From the NCBI GenBank assembly GCA_958295525.1, contig OY282355.1, positions 2,448,417 through 2,512,416 on the forward strand: 64,000 nt of DNA. The letters are read 5' to 3'. A program made the translations under genes and the position numbers. This DNA comes from an uncultured Dehalococcoidia bacterium. Its GTDB lineage: Bacteria > Chloroflexota > Dehalococcoidia > Lucifugimonadales > Australimonadaceae. Below the pieces are notes generated by a model. It did not search any database, was not told the origin of the DNA, and worked only from the letters and a program-made list of their open reading frames with translations. Below are positions 54,988-63,364 of this stretch, one piece after another. Position 1 is the first letter of the stretch. Each line of letters starts with the position of its first letter.

Positions 54988-55206
54988 ATGATGGCGGACA
55001 CCGCGACGGCCCTGCCGGCGTGCCAGGCGTGCAACGAAGGCGACCTCGTGCCCCTCTCGGATTTCGGGAGCCAGGGGGCTCCCATCCATTACAAGGCGTG
55101 GGTGTGCACCAACCCCGACTGCGGATTCAACATCAAAATCCGCAACGGCGACGTGTACCTCAACGAGCCCATCAACAGCGGCGAGGCTTACGTGGCCAGG
55201 CGTTAG
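54988..55206 (+). CDS. Small zinc-ribbon protein
   Basis: 72 residues. CQAC near residue 12 and CTNPDC near residue 41 form a four-cysteine zinc ribbon; KAWVCTNPDCGFNIKIRNGDVYLNEPI follows. Probably nucleic-acid or protein binding; no specific function known. GGAGGAGG lies upstream, with tandem ATGs at 54988/54991. Confidence 0.8.
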   Translation: MMADTATALPACQACNEGDLVPLSDFGSQGAPIHYKAWVCTNPDCGFNIKIRNGDVYLNEPINSGEAYVARR

Positions 55207-55353: not shown

Positions 55354-56247
55354 ATGAAGGCGGACGAGCAGGGAGCGCCGAGGGTTATGCGCAAGTCTGC
55401 GATGGCGGGAGACGGCGGGATGCAAGAGCGAAGGCGCGGGCGCGCGCCGTTCCTCGTCGGCGGCGCGCTGCTCGCGTGCGGCGCGCTTCTGCTGGCCGCC
55501 GCCGCCGCCTACTACGGCTACGGCTTCTTCGCCGCGCGCAACCTCGACCGCCTCGCCGTATCCGCCGGAGAGCGCGTAACCGAAACGCTCGCCGTCGCCC
55601 CCGCGCCTCCCGCCGCCGCGGAGCGCCCTTCGCCCGCCGCGCAAATCCTCTACCCCGGCGCGCTTCTCCCCGCCCGCCAGTGGGCCGACCCGCGCGGCGC
55701 GATCACGCTCGGCCAGCCCGACCTCGACGGATTCATCCCCATCGGCGGCGAGGCCCGCCCCCTCATCGCGGGCGCAGTCGGAAGAGCGGACCGCATCGTC
55801 ATCCCCCAACTTGGCGTCGACGCCGCCGTCGAGGAACTCAACCTCATCAACCTGGCGTCCAGCCCCGCCTACGAGACGCCCAAGTTCACCGTCGGCCACA
55901 TCCCCACCACCCCCAACCCCGGCTCGGCCGGCAACGGCTGGTACTTCGGCCACCTCGAGAACCCCGTTCAGGGCGAAGGCAACGTCTTTCTCCGGTTGCC
56001 GGAGATAGCCGCCCTCCTGCGCGACGGCGAGGAGACGCACGTCGTCCTCACGTCCGGCGAGCGCGACTACCTCTACCTCGTCAGCGCCACCGACCTCGTG
56101 CATGCCGACGACCTTGCGCTCTACCCGTCCGGCGACGCCCGCGTTTCGCTCGTAACCTGCTACCCGCGCCTCCGCTACGACCACCGTCTCATCGTCACCG
56201 CGAATCTCATCGCCTTCCGCGATGCGTCCGCCGTCCAAATTGGGTAG
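55354..56247 (+). CDS. Sortase, class D/E-like
   Basis: 297 residues. A basic N-terminus, one transmembrane anchor (about 32-54), a Pro-rich linker, and a sortase domain with the catalytic His in WYFGHLENPVQGEGNVFLRL, Cys in SLVTCYPRL and Arg in YDHRLIVTA. It cleaves a sorting signal and links proteins to an amine acceptor on the surface. No LPxTG-type substrate was seen in the window. It lies 12 nt before the first Sec-redoxin gene. Confidence 0.85.
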   Translation: MKADEQGAPRVMRKSAMAGDGGMQERRRGRAPFLVGGALLACGALLLAAAAAYYGYGFFAARNLDRLAVSAGERVTETLAVAPAPPAAAERPSPAAQILYPGALLPARQWADPRGAITLGQPDLDGFIPIGGEARPLIAGAVGRADRIVIPQLGVDAAVEELNLINLASSPAYETPKFTVGHIPTTPNPGSAGNGWYFGHLENPVQGEGNVFLRLPEIAALLRDGEETHVVLTSGERDYLYLVSATDLVHADDLALYPSGDARVSLVTCYPRLRYDHRLIVTANLIAFRDASAVQIG

Positions 56248-56259: not shown

Positions 56260-56880
56260 ATGACCTACGGAGCGCAATACGGCCTGATCTTGCGAACGCT
56301 CGCCGCGGCGAGCGCCGCCTTCGCTTTGGCCGCGTGCGGCGCGGAGCCGCCAGCCCCAACGGCGACCCCCGAGGCGCAGCCGACGCCGACCGCCTCATCG
56401 CAGCCGGATTCCGCAGCGCCGTCCGGCGGCGGATGGCGCGCCGACGTCGCCCCCGGCCCGCGCCCCGGCGACCGCGCGACCGACGCGGAGATCGCGCTCG
56501 TCGACGGATCATTCACGACGATAGAGGCCGCCGCCGCCGGCAGGTCCGTCCTCCTCTATTTCTTCGCCACGTGGTGACCGAGTTGCCGCGCCGAGTTTCG
56601 GACGCTCAGCGGCCTCTACGACGACTACAAGGACGACGTCGAAATCGTCGCCGTCGCGTGGTCGGACAGCGCGAAGTCGCTTGGCGATTACGCGCGGGTG
56701 AACGGGCTCCGCTGGGTGTTCGCCGAGGCCCCGCCGGACCTCGCGGCGCAGTACGGTATTCGTTCGCAATCGTCGTGGGCGGCCATCGGCGCCGACGGCG
56801 TCATCGTCGGCAACCGGGGCCCCGGCGCGCAGGACGAGGACTACTGGCGCGGCGTCCTCGACCAACTCCGCGGCGCTTGA
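56260..56880 (+). CDS. Predicted selenoprotein: TlpA-like redoxin lipoprotein 1 (UGA = Sec 106)
   Basis: 206 residues if the in-frame TGA at 56575-56577 is read as selenocysteine. Signal peptide with lipobox LAAC (Cys 26), a short Pro-rich linker, then a thioredoxin fold: SVLLYFFATW-U-P-S-C-RAEF, where TlpA/ResA proteins have W-C-x-x-C. The frame stays open to 56878 and continues the fold (YDDYKDDVEIVAVAWSD, LRWVFAEAP, SSWAAIGADGVIVGN). The usual cis-Pro position is Ser (QSSW). It probably reduces disulfides or peroxides outside the membrane. The TGA would otherwise truncate the protein at the active site. An alternative is a nonsense mutation, unlikely given the paralogue. ATG 56260 is preferred over GTG 56257. 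Confidence 0.85.
56585..56613 (+). promoter_or_regulatory. SECIS-like hairpin after UGA in Sec-redoxin 1
   Basis: CCGA (56591-56594), loop GTT, TCGG (56598-56601), on a lower stem GCCGC (56585-56589)/GCGGC (56609-56613). The loop starts with G and lies 17 nt after the UGA, in the range known for bacterial SECIS elements, which sit inside the coding region just downstream of UGA. Confidence 0.6.
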
Positions 56881-56894
56881 GGGAGCAGACTGTT

Positions 56895-57839
56895 ATGCAT
56901 CCCGCCGTCGCGAGAATACGAGCACGGCTGGCCGCCGGAGCGCTGCTGCTGACCGCGCTCGCCGCCGCGTGCAGCACGGAAGAAGCCGCGCCGACCGCCA
57001 CGCCAACTGCGACTCCTCCTCCCGCGCCTGCGGCGACCGCGACCCTCGCGCCAACGGCGACTCCCCGTCCCGCGCCTGCGGCGACCGCAACCCTCGCGCC
57101 GACGGCGACTCCCATCCCACAGACCGCCGCAACGCCTACCCGCGCCCCAACTCCCGCGCCGCAGTCCGCCCGACGCGACGCCGCGCCCGCGCCAACGCCC
57201 ACCGCGACCCCCGCGCCGACAGACGGACGGCGCGCGGACATTCCCGCGCAGCCCGCGCCAACGCCGCCAACGCCCACCGCGACCCCCGCGCCGACGGTAA
57301 CCCCTGCCCCGCCGCCGACCGCGACGCCTACGCTCGCTCCGACGGCCACTCCAATCCCGCCGCCCACCCCGACGCCGGCCCCGGCCGCCGGATGGCGCGG
57401 CGACCTCCCCGTCGGCGCTGGCGAGGGCGACCGCGCGGCCGACGCGGCCCTCACGCTCGCCGACGGCTCGTCCACGACGATAGAGGCCGCCGCCGCCGGC
57501 AGGTCCGTCCTCCTCTATTTCTTCGCCACGTGGTGACCGAATTGCCGCTCCGAGTTTCGGACGCTCAGCAGTCTCTACGACGACTACAAAGACGACGTCG
57601 AAATCGTCGCCGTCGCGTGGTCGGACAACGCGCAATCGCTTGGCCGTTACGCGAGCGGGAACAACCTCCGATGGGTGTTCGCCGAGGCTCCGACGACGCT
57701 CGCCCGCGCCTACGACGTCCGCCAGCAATCGTCGTGGACGGCCATCGGCGCCGACGGCGTCATCGTCAGGAGCCGGGGCTACGGCGCGCAGGGCGCGGGC
57801 TACTGGCGCGGCGTCCTCGACCAACTCCGCGCCGGTTAG
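56895..57839 (+). CDS. Predicted selenoprotein: TlpA-like redoxin lipoprotein 2 (UGA = Sec 214)
   Basis: 314 residues if TGA at 57534-57536 is Sec. Lipobox LAAAC (Cys 26), then about 140 residues of Pro/Thr/Ala repeats (APTPTP, LAPTATP) as a long stalk, then a redoxin domain with FFATW-U-P-N-C-RSEF. It is a tandem paralogue of the preceding gene: about 40 base differences after the UGA, no stop or frameshift, and protein motifs kept. GGGAG lies 6 nt before the ATG, 14 nt after the first gene. The longer stalk would place the domain further from the membrane. Confidence 0.85.
57549..57561 (+). promoter_or_regulatory. SECIS-like hairpin after UGA in Sec-redoxin 2
   Basis: TCCGA (57549-57553), loop GTT, TCGGA (57557-57561): 5 bp, with the loop again exactly 17 nt after the UGA. 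The lower stem of copy 1 is not kept. Confidence 0.55.
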
Positions 57840-60001: not shown

Positions 60002-63000
60002 ATGACCACCACGACTCCACGACCCAACCGCGACGCCCTCAACGAGGCCATCAACGTCTACCGCGACGCGATGCGCCCCTTCGTCGTCCGCGCGCTCAAG
60101 GCCAACGCGAAGGGCGCGACCGTCGAGGATGCGATACGCCAGTCGCTGAACGAGCGCCAGCGCGACCAATTCGACGCGAACCTCAAGCGAAGCCCCGGCA
60201 ATCCTGCGGCGGCGATAGACGTCAACGATTTCCCTCGCCTCGTGGAGCGCAACCGCGGCGCCTTCTCCGCTTACGGCAACGTCTTGTCCAGCGAAATGTG
60301 GATGGTGGTGGAGGCGCGGAACCCCGCCGCCCATCCGTCCGACCGGGACATGGACGCCGAGGGCGTCCGCACGAGCCTTTCCATCATCGCCGGAGCGCTT
60401 GGCCGAGTCAACGCGCCGACGCAGAAGGCGGAAGTCGAGGCCATCCGCGACGCGCTGATCGCTCCGCCCGCCGCGCCGCCCGCGCCCGCCGAATCCGCGC
60501 CGCCCGCCAACGGCAAGCCCGCTCCCAAGACGCGCGGCGCGTCCTCCAACCTGAAGGCGTGGCGCGAGGTCATTCCGCCCCGCTCCGACGTCTTGTCGGG
60601 GCAATTGGGCTTGGAGAAGTTCGCCGCCGACTTGCAGCAAGTTCACGACGGGCGCGCCGTCAACGACTACGCGAACCCCGTCACCTTCTTCGCGCAGACC
60701 TACATCACCCCCGGACTTCGCGCGCTGCTGCTCAACGCCGCAAGGCGGCTCGGCGGCGCCGGCGGCGACCCCGTCATCCAGACGAAAACCGGCTTCGGGG
60801 GCGGCAAGACCCATAGCCTCATCGCCCTGTACCACCTCGCCAAGAGCGCCGCCGCCCTCGTCAATCCCGCCGACTCCAAAGACGGCGAGCGCGTCGGCAG
60901 AGAAGTGCGGAGCATCCTCTCCGACGCCGGCCTCGACCCCGACGACCCGCCCGACGCGAGCGTCGCCGTGCTCGACGGCATGCACCTCAACCCTGCGAGC
61001 GGGACGCTGTGGGGCGAGATGGCGCGGCAACTCGGCGGCGACGAAGCCTACGCCTTCGTCGAGCCTGCGATAGCGGAGGGCGTCGCCCCGACTGGCGAGC
61101 AGTTGGATCCGCTCTTCGAGCGCGTCGGCCCGTGCGTCATTCTCATTGACGAACTCGTCGCCTACGCCCGCAACACGACCGACGAAATGCGCGCGCGGAT
61201 CTACACCTTCACACAGGCGCTCACGCAATCCGTCAGGCGCAGCCCCAACGCCGCCCTCGTCGTGACGCTCCTCGACAGCGAAGCGCAAGTCGGCGGGCAG
61301 GTCGGCGTGGATGCTCTTCACTCATTGGAAGGCATCCTCGGCCGGATCGAGGCTGTCTGGGAGCCGCTGCAGGTCGGCGAGGCGTTCGAGGTCGTTCGCC
61401 GCAGGCTCTTCGGCAACGACCCCGACATAGCCGAGCGCGACCGGACGTGCGGGGCGTTCGCTCAGATGTACAGCCGCTTCCGCAAGGAATTCCCGCAGCA
61501 GATGTCCGAGGCGCGCTACGCCGACCGCCTCAAGCAGTGCTATCCCATTCACCCGGAGGTGTTCGACCGCCTCTACGAGGACTGGTCGCCGACGCACAAC
61601 TTTCAGCGCACGCGCGGCGTTCTCCGCCTGATGGCCATCGCCGTCAGCAGGCTCTACCGCGACAACGACGCTTCCCCGCTCATTATGCCCGCCAACCTTC
61701 CCTTGCAGGGCCAGGCCGACAACTCCCTCGCCGCCGAATTCAAACGCTTCCTCGGCGGCGGCAACTGGTCCCCCGTTCTCACCGAAGTCGACGACAACAA
61801 TTCCCTCGCCGAAGACATCGACAAGGAGTCCAGCCGGTTCGCCGAAATCGGCGGCGCGGCGCGCAGGCTCGCCCGCGCCATCTTCCTCGGCAGCGCGCCC
61901 ACCGGGGCCGCCAAGGGCATTGACGAAAGCCGGGTTCACGCCGCCGTGATGCAGCCCGGGCACGGCGTCGCCGACTACAACGACGCCCTCCGCCGGATGG
62001 TGGACAACCTCCACTTCCTCTATTACGCCAGCGGCCGCTACTACTTCCACGTCGAAGAGAACCTCAACAAGGCCGCCAACGACCGCGCCCGCGCCATCGA
62101 GCAGCGCGACCTCGACGCGCACGTGACCGAAACGCTGCTTCCGCAGGCCGCCGGACGCGCGCGCGGCGTGATCGTCGCCCCCGCTGACTCCGCCCACGTC
62201 CCGGAGGCCGACGAGGTTCGCCTGATCATCCTCCCGCCCGACAAGCATCTCCCGTCCCGCACCGCCGAGGCGGAAACCGCCGCCGCCTGGCTCTACGCGC
62301 TGGACATCCTGCAGCATCGCGGCGACGCAGGCCGGGTCGCCCGCAACACGCTGATCTTCCTCGCCGCCAAATCCGACGAAATCCGCGCCTTGCGCGACGC
62401 CGTCCGCAAATATCTCGCGTGGCGCTCCATCGTCAACGGCAGCCCGCACGGCTACAAGATCGAAATGACCGGCGAACGCGCTCACCAAGCCGCCGCCAGC
62501 CTCCGCTCCGCCGAGTCCGAGATGAGCGACGCGCTCTTCAACGCCTACCGCTGGACGCTCGTCCCCACGCAGCCCGACCCGCGCAAGGCCGAATACGACT
62601 TCCACATCGCCCAAGCCCCGCGCTCCGGCGAGATCGTTTCCGCCGCGTTCGAGAAAACGATCAAAGACGAGCAACTCGTCGCCAAGATCGCGCCTTCTCA
62701 ACTCGCCAACCTCCTCGACGAGTGGGTTTGGTCCAAGGAGCCCACCGCCGAGCGCGTCACCATCGAAACGCTCTGGAATATGCTCGCCAACAACGTCTAT
62801 ATGCCCCGCCGCCTCCGCGACAAGACTGTCCTGCAGTTGTGCGTCTTCGAGGGAACGGAGCAAGGCGTATTCGGCTACGCCGACGCCTACCGCGACGGCG
62901 TGTACGCGAATCTGCGCTACGGGCAGGCGCCCCAATCGCCGGGCGTCATCGGCGAAAACGGCGAAAACGTGCTCGTCCGCCCCGATAAGGCGCGGGAAAT

Positions 63001-63364
63001 CGCGGCGAGAGCGGCGCCGCCCGACGACGGAACGCAACCCCCGGACCCCACGTCGGGGGGCGCCGGCGGCGTGACGCCCTGGCCGGACGGCGCGACCCCG
63101 TGGCCGTCCGATCCGCCCGCAAACCAACCGCCGCCCGGCCCTGTCCGCCTGACCGTCCGCAAGCGCGTCTCCGGCGAAATCTCCCTCGACGACCTCGGCC
63201 AACTGCGCGACGAAATCATCGCCAACCTCCTCCGCGACGGCGGCGAGGTGATCATCGAGATCACCGGACGCAAGCCCGGCGGCTTCTCCGAAAGCGCCCG
63301 CCGCGCCGTCCGCGAAAACAGCGCCCAATTGAGCCTGGACTTCGATGGGGGCGCCGACGGCTAG
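60002..63364 (+). CDS. DUF499 family ATPase with N-terminal HEPN (Swt1-like) domain
   Basis: 1120 residues. Residues about 10-135 look like a Swt1-type HEPN domain with R-x4-H (R106-N-P-A-A-H111) before PSDRD, an RNase-like motif. The ATPase follows: Walker A GFGGGKTHS (264-272), Walker B CVILIDELVAY (378-388), DUF499 blocks YPIHPEVFDRLYEDW and QRTRGVLRLMAIAV. A Pro/Gly-rich linker near 1005-1045 leads to a small C-terminal domain. DUF499 genes are known beside DUF1156 methyltransferase and helicase genes in anti-phage islands; here none of these partners follows. GATAAT lies 12 nt before the ATG. Confidence 0.88.
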   Translation: MTTTTPRPNRDALNEAINVYRDAMRPFVVRALKANAKGATVEDAIRQSLNERQRDQFDANLKRSPGNPAAAIDVNDFPRLVERNRGAFSAYGNVLSSEMWMVVEARNPAAHPSDRDMDAEGVRTSLSIIAGALGRVNAPTQKAEVEAIRDALIAPPAAPPAPAESAPPANGKPAPKTRGASSNLKAWREVIPPRSDVLSGQLGLEKFAADLQQVHDGRAVNDYANPVTFFAQTYITPGLRALLLNAARRLGGAGGDPVIQTKTGFGGGKTHSLIALYHLAKSAAALVNPADSKDGERVGREVRSILSDAGLDPDDPPDASVAVLDGMHLNPASGTLWGEMARQLGGDEAYAFVEPAIAEGVAPTGEQLDPLFERVGPCVILIDELVAYARNTTDEMRARIYTFTQALTQSVRRSPNAALVVTLLDSEAQVGGQVGVDALHSLEGILGRIEAVWEPLQVGEAFEVVRRRLFGNDPDIAERDRTCGAFAQMYSRFRKEFPQQMSEARYADRLKQCYPIHPEVFDRLYEDWSPTHNFQRTRGVLRLMAIAVSRLYRDNDASPLIMPANLPLQGQADNSLAAEFKRFLGGGNWSPVLTEVDDNNSLAEDIDKESSRFAEIGGAARRLARAIFLGSAPTGAAKGIDESRVHAAVMQPGHGVADYNDALRRMVDNLHFLYYASGRYYFHVEENLNKAANDRARAIEQRDLDAHVTETLLPQAAGRARGVIVAPADSAHVPEADEVRLIILPPDKHLPSRTAEAETAAAWLYALDILQHRGDAGRVARNTLIFLAAKSDEIRALRDAVRKYLAWRSIVNGSPHGYKIEMTGERAHQAAASLRSAESEMSDALFNAYRWTLVPTQPDPRKAEYDFHIAQAPRSGEIVSAAFEKTIKDEQLVAKIAPSQLANLLDEWVWSKEPTAERVTIETLWNMLANNVYMPRRLRDKTVLQLCVFEGTEQGVFGYADAYRDGVYANLRYGQAPQSPGVIGENGENVLVRPDKAREIAARAAPPDDGTQPPDPTSGGAGGVTPWPDGATPWPSDPPANQPPPGPVRLTVRKRVSGEISLDDLGQLRDEIIANLLRDGGEVIIEITGRKPGGFSESARRAVRENSAQLSLDFDGGADG

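Follow-up and report, generated by a model that had tools for sequence, protein, structure and literature searches.

Two neighboring genes in the genome of an uncultured Dehalococcoidia bacterium (GTDB lineage Chloroflexota; Dehalococcoidia; Lucifugimonadales; Australimonadaceae) raise the question whether an in-frame UGA is read in them as a stop or as an amino acid. Both lie within a stretch of 64,000 nucleotides (assembly GCA_958295525.1, contig OY282355.1, positions 2,448,417 to 2,512,416), in the following called the window, which lies at the end of a genome assembled as one 2.51-Mb contig and 96.5% complete. A first-pass annotation, made from the DNA letters, had proposed two tandem selenoproteins of the TlpA-like redoxin type with UGA in place of the first redox cysteine. 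According to the analysis described here, the UGA of both genes is very probably read as selenocysteine (Sec, U), and the products are predicted to be selenolipoproteins with a likely redox function.

The two genes are located on the + strand with 14 bases between them, and all features discussed are compiled in Table 1. The codons in question stand in the contexts FFATW-U-PSC (gene 1) and FFATW-U-PNC (gene 2), which is the place of the first redox cysteine, and beyond them each frame stays open for 100 codons, as had been noticed at first reading. Of the 303 bases that run from the UGA through the final sense codon, 47 differ between the copies; the earlier estimate of about 40 was thus too low, whereas the absence of a stop from either frame held. 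If TGA is translated as a residue, the two proteins exceed the cut-offs of the Pfam models AhpC-TSA, Redoxin, Thioredoxin_8 and Thioredoxin. The standard code splits gene 1 into pieces of 106 and 60 amino acids, the kind of splitting that had been expected of ordinary gene callers. A database protein of a relative fits this picture: residues 2-82 of P0109, a public 82-aa "hypothetical protein", match the part of the homolog L039 that follows the UGA. When gene 1 was the sole query against the protein database, seven matches were obtained, mostly short pieces, and further pieces of 94-100 aa are found among the protein database matches.

Table 1. Predicted features of the gene pair and its upstream neighbors (positions within the window)
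Feature	Position	Strand	Basis or remark
Gene 1, predicted selenolipoprotein	56260..56880	+	ATG 56260 (GTG 56257 possible), ends with UGA 56878-56880
Gene 1 lipobox cysteine (LAA-C), predicted	56335..56337	+	sequence
Gene 1 in-frame UGA, predicted Sec, W-U-P-S-C	56575..56577	+	homologous codon mostly TGA
Predicted hairpin 1 (SECIS type)	56588..56605	+	GCG-CCGA(GUU)UCGG-(A)-CGC, loop start 17 nt past UGA
Gene 2, predicted selenolipoprotein, same domain as gene 1	56895..57839	+	ends with UAG (TAG)
Gene 2 lipobox cysteine (AAA-C, less canonical), predicted	56970..56972	+	sequence
Gene 2 low-complexity Pro/Thr/Ala stalk	56988..57390	+	about 140 residues, from sequence
Gene 2 in-frame UGA, predicted Sec, W-U-P-N-C	57534..57536	+	sequence
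Predicted hairpin 2 (SECIS type)	57547..57563	+	UCCGA(GUU)UCGGA core, loop start 17 nt past UGA
Sortase-domain gene, directly upstream of gene 1	55354..56247	+	Pfam Sortase 58.6 bits; 5/21 loci
72-aa Cys-containing protein, upstream	54988-55206		5/21 loci

For the comparison with relatives, domains homologous to those of the window were collected. Over the 95 codons that follow the UGA, 37 aligned domains contain no in-frame stop, compared with 80 and 87 stops in the other two frames, and the positions W48, U49, C52, G26, G123 and W139 are invariant. Of the 32 order-search rows listed without TGA, regions were fetched for 20. The homologous codon was determined in 88 domains; it is TGA in 64, TGT or TGC in 23 and TGG in one, so that cysteine homologs aligning across the UGA do exist. 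The 64 TGA domains, hereafter Sec domains (their own TGA count is by definition no test), span 16 families of the order and two other families of the class. One domain (L028, G161:C83), which sits on a short contig and is out of frame in its 5' part, was left out of both sets, reducing them from 38 to 37 and from 89 to 88. On this 7.2-kb contig the gene closely resembles second copies of the window's genus, yet its genome belongs to another family, and it represents either a mis-binned contig or a transfer.

With gene 1 as the query (threshold 1e-8, up to 12 candidates scored per genome), 133 of 250 genomes of the order gave matches. Exactly one TGA is present in 118 of the 150 rows listed, derived from 87 genomes; the position of the TGA at the Sec codon was verified for the domains that were extracted rather than for all 118 rows. 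A search of 393 genomes of the class, a sample overlapping the genomes used to build the search model, yielded 26 matches of more than 140 bits in 17 genomes, of which 25 contain one TGA and the remaining one has none; below them the scores drop to 107 bits. With a pattern permitting U or C, which missed two ordinary Cys TlpA genes (L030, L048), 38 domains were retrieved from the 30 top-scoring loci found in the order, and all 38 carry TGA.

The genes for selenocysteine insertion are present in the window's own genome. Matches above the curated cut-offs were obtained for selA (498.6 bits), selB (341 bits; this cut-off is exceeded in 36 of the 39 genomes searched), selD (370 bits; L016, which itself contains an in-frame TGA in SCAG-U-AGK) and a tRNA-Sec with the anticodon TCA (UCA; 71.8 bits), on which ARAGORN agrees. 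Three further tRNA-Sec matches above the cut-off are tRNA-Ser according to ARAGORN. All 14 control genomes gave matches for selB, selD and tRNA-Sec, above the cut-off in 2, 2 and 5 of them, respectively. As low-score matches thus occur beyond Sec users, only the curated cut-offs count, and these are exceeded by all four genes. Judged by this gene content, the genome is probably able to insert selenocysteine. Neither a lack of selB, selC or selD nor relatives whose genes end at this codon without conservation downstream, both of which were looked for, were found.

A reassignment of UGA throughout the genome, for example to tryptophan or cysteine and without Sec, has next to no probability. It could draw on a single tandem partner in genome G249 that carries TGG (Trp) at the codon, but UGA is not simply reassigned, because gene 1 itself terminates at UGA. 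In addition, tRNA-Sec, SelA, SelB and SelD are all encoded in the genome, and the six Cys genes of the subfamily for which DNA is at hand use TGT or TGC. The TGG copy (L064, G249:C282) has moreover kept a perfect seven-pair hairpin with a GUU loop, which is what a recent change from UGA would leave behind; either Sec was lost here not long ago, or the TGG is a sequencing error. Both this reassignment and a pseudogene or assembly error were rejected as explanations in view of the 64 TGA domains, the hairpin and the UGA at the end of gene 1.

Ten places in the genome match AhpC-TSA, and four of these contain one TGA, namely genes 1 and 2 and two others. The latter encode a peroxiredoxin-like protein with the UGA in TGG-U (L191, G000:C1:1967469-1967846) and a lipoprotein-like protein with U-GTC (L194, G000:C1:1424495-1424866). 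A different protein with an in-frame TGA in a T-U-P-L-C context was seen at L083 near 13010 (+).

A hairpin behind the UGA, the bacterial selenocysteine insertion sequence (bSECIS), is the second element on which the reading depends. The model given in PMC13188914 comprises a loop of 3-9 nt with G within the first two places, a stem of 4-16 bp, a distance of 16-37 nt from the UGA and a minimum free energy (MFE) of -7.5 or below. Both hairpins of the window agree with it (loop GUU at 17 nt, 4-5 bp plus a bulged extension), and their MFE on 40 nt amounts to -14.1 and -11.7 kcal/mol. Across the Sec domains the position is fixed, with the hairpin beginning 10-13 nt and the loop 16-17 nt after the UGA. 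The first base of the loop is G in 63 of the 64 Sec domains and the loop reads GUU in 56; the three core pairs form in 63/64, compared with 0/6 Cys members of the subfamily and 4/17 ordinary TlpA genes. In a set of 14 members hand-picked for diversity, changes on both sides occur at all seven pairs, and the covariation score is 0.403 versus 0.116 after shuffling and at most 0.113 when slid. Over 37 domains, 4.68 of six pairs were observed versus 2.81 +/- 0.16 after synonymous recoding, a null model that uses the genes' own codon usage and ignores shared ancestry.

The proposal of two selenocysteine codons is hence strongly supported by the machinery, the recurring UGA, the Cys members aligned across it and the covarying hairpin. 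Several observations weigh against it. Within the genus the median ratio of nonsynonymous to synonymous differences (pN/pS) is 0.82 downstream of the UGA versus 0.48 upstream, and 47 of 55 genus pairs stay below 1 downstream. Downstream differences are nearly flat over the three codon positions in the mixed genus set (0.311, 0.269, 0.318); an excess at third positions appears in the first-copy set and the second-copy set when taken separately, and the window's own pair has none (0.15, 0.17, 0.15). Taken alone, the window hairpins are not exceptional against shuffled sequences, with z of -1.23 and -1.72 on 40 nt and of -0.42 and -0.75 on 53 nt, where the best fold of gene 1 differs. Finally, 117 of the 250 order genomes, four of the same family among them, have no match at 1e-8, which indicates that the gene is dispensable. 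The alternative that the UGAs are ordinary stops with decayed remains downstream, or products of assembly error, can take up the moderate pN/pS, and also that standard gene calling ends there and that gene 1 terminates at a genuine UGA as well. It is nevertheless very improbable, since TGA, conserved fold residues and hairpin coincide in 64 domains of 18 taxonomic families and the 37 aligned domains continue without a stop.

Which kind of redoxin contains the predicted Sec? Gene 1 encodes a short stalk of about 30 residues and a domain of predicted TlpA/ResA fold (structure model with a mean predicted local distance difference test score, pLDDT, of 96). ResA is the closest solved structure to the window domains in both fold and sequence, and to this extent the name "TlpA-like" was well chosen; it is incomplete in that the cis-proline is absent and the proteins form a branch of their own. 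Both window genes have Ser at the cis-Pro site before the third core strand. Pro occupies this site in 2 of the 64 Sec domains (replaced in 62) and in 17/17 ordinary TlpA proteins; the residue is Ser, Ala, Met or Pro in all 64. The site is preceded by Gln in 60/64 Sec domains and 7/21 Cys members; like those for cis-Pro, these counts ignore shared ancestry. Two domains of another family of the class (L182 and L183, from G255 and G313) have kept the cis-Pro in Gln-Pro-Ser-Lys and are possible intermediates. A Glu three residues past the second Cys, aligning with that of the CxxC-K-K-E motif of ResA, occurs in at least 90% of the 37 rows.

In the phylogenetic tree, Sec and Cys members together form a separate branch. 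The tree is of a quick kind, with support from the Shimodaira-Hasegawa-like approximate likelihood ratio test (SH-aLRT) only and with some forks open, and it includes 15 of 120 listed database proteins, picked by eye from the top full-length matches (within P0008-P0024, P0019 and P0022 not used). These 15 proteins and L049, L051, L053, L054, L056 and L058 make up the subfamily's Cys members; cis-Pro is absent from all 21, and the six with DNA use TGT or TGC. Sec and Cys forms thus share the branch and typically the lack of cis-Pro, and the Cys forms (six with DNA) differ by having no SECIS core pairs. Against the NCBIfam ResA model the window proteins reach 43.5 and 47.3 bits at a cut-off of 170, and no NCBIfam model attains its cut-off on either of them. 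As judged from alignment and tree, the window genes differ from ordinary TlpA/ResA proteins and belong to a subfamily without cis-proline.

Both proteins open with a signal-peptide-like stretch and, by our reading of the sequence, a lipobox-like cysteine, assigned by the lipobox consensus. A loose pattern of our own making recovers such a motif upstream of the domain in 57/64 Sec domains. The membrane anchoring proposed before is therewith supported as a prediction, and the long Pro/Thr stalk on one of the copies was found again in gene 2.

The doubling of the gene recurs within the order. Among the 87 genomes for which TGA matches were listed, at least 25 have two such matches within 3 kb on one contig, which is a lower bound as it is based on the 150 rows listed and up to 12 candidates per genome. 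In G165 and G167 (L029, L033) the two Sec domains are fused in one frame with a stalk between them and two UGAs, and a six- or seven-pair hairpin follows each. The copies of a pair cluster within their own lineage, namely in the window's genus, G052, G165/G167/G021, G341/G255/G313, G197, G020/G161, G025, G248/G249 and G192/G193, which indicates repeated duplication or concerted evolution. A single old tandem pair, kept alike in each lineage through gene conversion instead of arising by repeated duplication, comes close to an even chance: the two window copies agree in all 60 bases that precede the UGA and in the UGA itself, and further on 18-30 bases match per 30, as expected of recent gene conversion, and the grouping by lineage agrees with it, but no flanking gene is shared at a steady place between families and many genomes have a single copy.

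Thioredoxin-like selenoproteins with a UxxC motif as such are not new. They have been catalogued since 2005 (PMC1088965, PMC2398784, PMC9312934), and a UxxC "Redoxin family protein" of PF08534 was catalogued later (PMC13188914). For Chloroflexi, three selenoprotein families were reported in a survey of 2006 (PMC1794560), and selenocysteine formate dehydrogenases are reported from deep-sea members (PMC5736913). The proteins from marine metagenomes ("thiol-disulfide isomerase-like protein", cd02966/Thioredoxin_8, and "Trx-like 1") resemble those of the window in having UxxC within a TlpA/thioredoxin-like fold, with Sec at the first Cys. The passages available on them make no mention of a loss of cis-proline, tandem pairs, a fusion or this lineage; the comparison is one of descriptions, and some of these proteins may belong to the subfamily. 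The "Redoxin family protein", compared by family and motif, shares PF08534 and UxxC with the proteins of genes 1 and 2. Two NCBIfam selenoprotein models of redoxin/ResA-like fold are far from reached, with best scores of 21.5 against a cut-off of 100 (NF053656, redoxin_TUGYCR) and of 13.2 against 300 (NF041054, WAxxUGC_long). Literature on selenoproteins in Chloroflexota, Dehalococcoidia or SAR202, on TlpA, redoxin, tandem and ResA, mostly outside subscription papers and in part seen as excerpts, contained no description of the subfamily.

Comparison of the flanking sequences covered 21 loci (20 fetched and the window; frames of at least 90 aa, the 40 commonest clusters listed). The Sec gene recurs in all 21. 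The sortase gene and the 72-aa Cys protein occur in five loci, all of the same taxonomic family, and a frame which we read as short-chain-dehydrogenase-like is found in five loci of five families, where its distance and strand vary. A conserved partner operon is unsupported, as among the clusters listed no gene keeps a steady place beyond the taxonomic family. Next to the Sec redoxin pair of two other genomes there is a UGSC-type UGA protein, in G020 (L078, G020:C1:1863084-1863518) assigned by the model NF041046 and in G161 (L085, near 5950) by likeness. NF041046 matches 11 of the 39 genomes searched, seven above the cut-off, with one TGA at each of the 29 places listed, and has no match in the window's genome. 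Within the window, ARAGORN calls a tRNA-Glu at 60303-60391 (-), antisense in an open frame of 1120 aa (60002-63364), which is probably false.

What the proteins might do can be outlined as follows. SelB and Sec-tRNA would recode the UGA owing to the hairpin, and the protein would be exported and lipid-anchored outside the cell membrane. Sec would be the attacking residue of the U-x-x-C site, with its selenolate attacking an oxidised substrate (a peroxide, a disulfide or similar); the Cys three residues on would resolve the intermediate as a Se-S bond, which a donor would then reduce. The second tandem copy, with a stalk of other length, would hold an additional active site nearer to or farther from the membrane than the first. 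We infer an action as thiol-disulfide or peroxide enzymes, the same two options that the first-pass annotation had named. Two results speak against so definite a picture: the models DsbD_TM, DsbD_2 and VKOR match nothing in the own genome (at 0.001 for the DsbD models), and there is no steady partner gene outside the family, so the substrate is a guess.

Given the loss of the cis-proline, we consider a small oxidant a likelier substrate than an apocytochrome or a protein in the course of folding. As a peroxidase, the protein would act on hydroperoxides or comparable small oxidants at the outer face of the membrane and reduce them much as peroxiredoxins and glutathione peroxidases do, but with its resolving Cys placed within the UxxC motif; we put this somewhat short of even. 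Peroxiredoxins are characterised by a motif of the TxxC(U) type and by an Arg at the site of the cis-Pro (PMC2757866). The window proteins differ from them by UxxC instead of TxxU or TxxC and by Ser/Ala in place of this Arg, which is absent from the site in 64/64 Sec domains. In a profile comparison with E. coli BtuE, 52 columns were aligned at a probability of 2.9, which is no usable alignment. Glutathione peroxidases have a catalytic tetrad with Gln, Trp and Asn around Sec; an equivalence of the Gln of the subfamily with their Asn or Gln is unsupported, as the BtuE alignment failed.

The function of ResA/CcmG, a disulfide reductase fed by CcdA/DsbD that maintains the cysteines of apocytochrome, or other exported ones, in the reduced state, is unlikely here in spite of ResA being the closest solved fold and sequence and of the conserved Glu of its motif. 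In comparison with ResA/CcmG/TlpA, the window proteins have Sec for Cys, Ser/Ala for cis-Pro and Gln before it, and their ResA scores fall far below the cut-off. The partner of those proteins is of the CcdA/DsbD type, and none was detected in the window's genome by two Pfam models; in the control genomes DsbD_TM, DsbD_2 and VKOR matched in 10, 10 and 3 of 14. Without DsbD/VKOR partners and a steady neighbor, the small-oxidant reductase is favored over a ResA-type function. Tentatively, and as a possibility rather than an expectation, the subfamily may represent a class of cell-surface selenoenzymes of the order's own, with a TlpA fold, Gln-Ser/Ala in place of the otherwise nearly universal cis-proline beside Sec, repeated tandem doubling on unequal stalks, a two-Sec fusion in one lineage and a role as small-oxidant reductase with a membrane electron donor.

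The empty DsbD and VKOR models turn the electron source of exported thiols in this genome into a testable question, and the loss of cis-proline together with the presence of Sec would be a natural test of the role of that proline in thioredoxin folds. Members of the subfamily are likely annotated as short fragments, as was shown for P0109. Given this fragment annotation and the fact that no NCBIfam cut-off is reached, a redox enzyme which is common in the order would be largely hidden from the protein databases.
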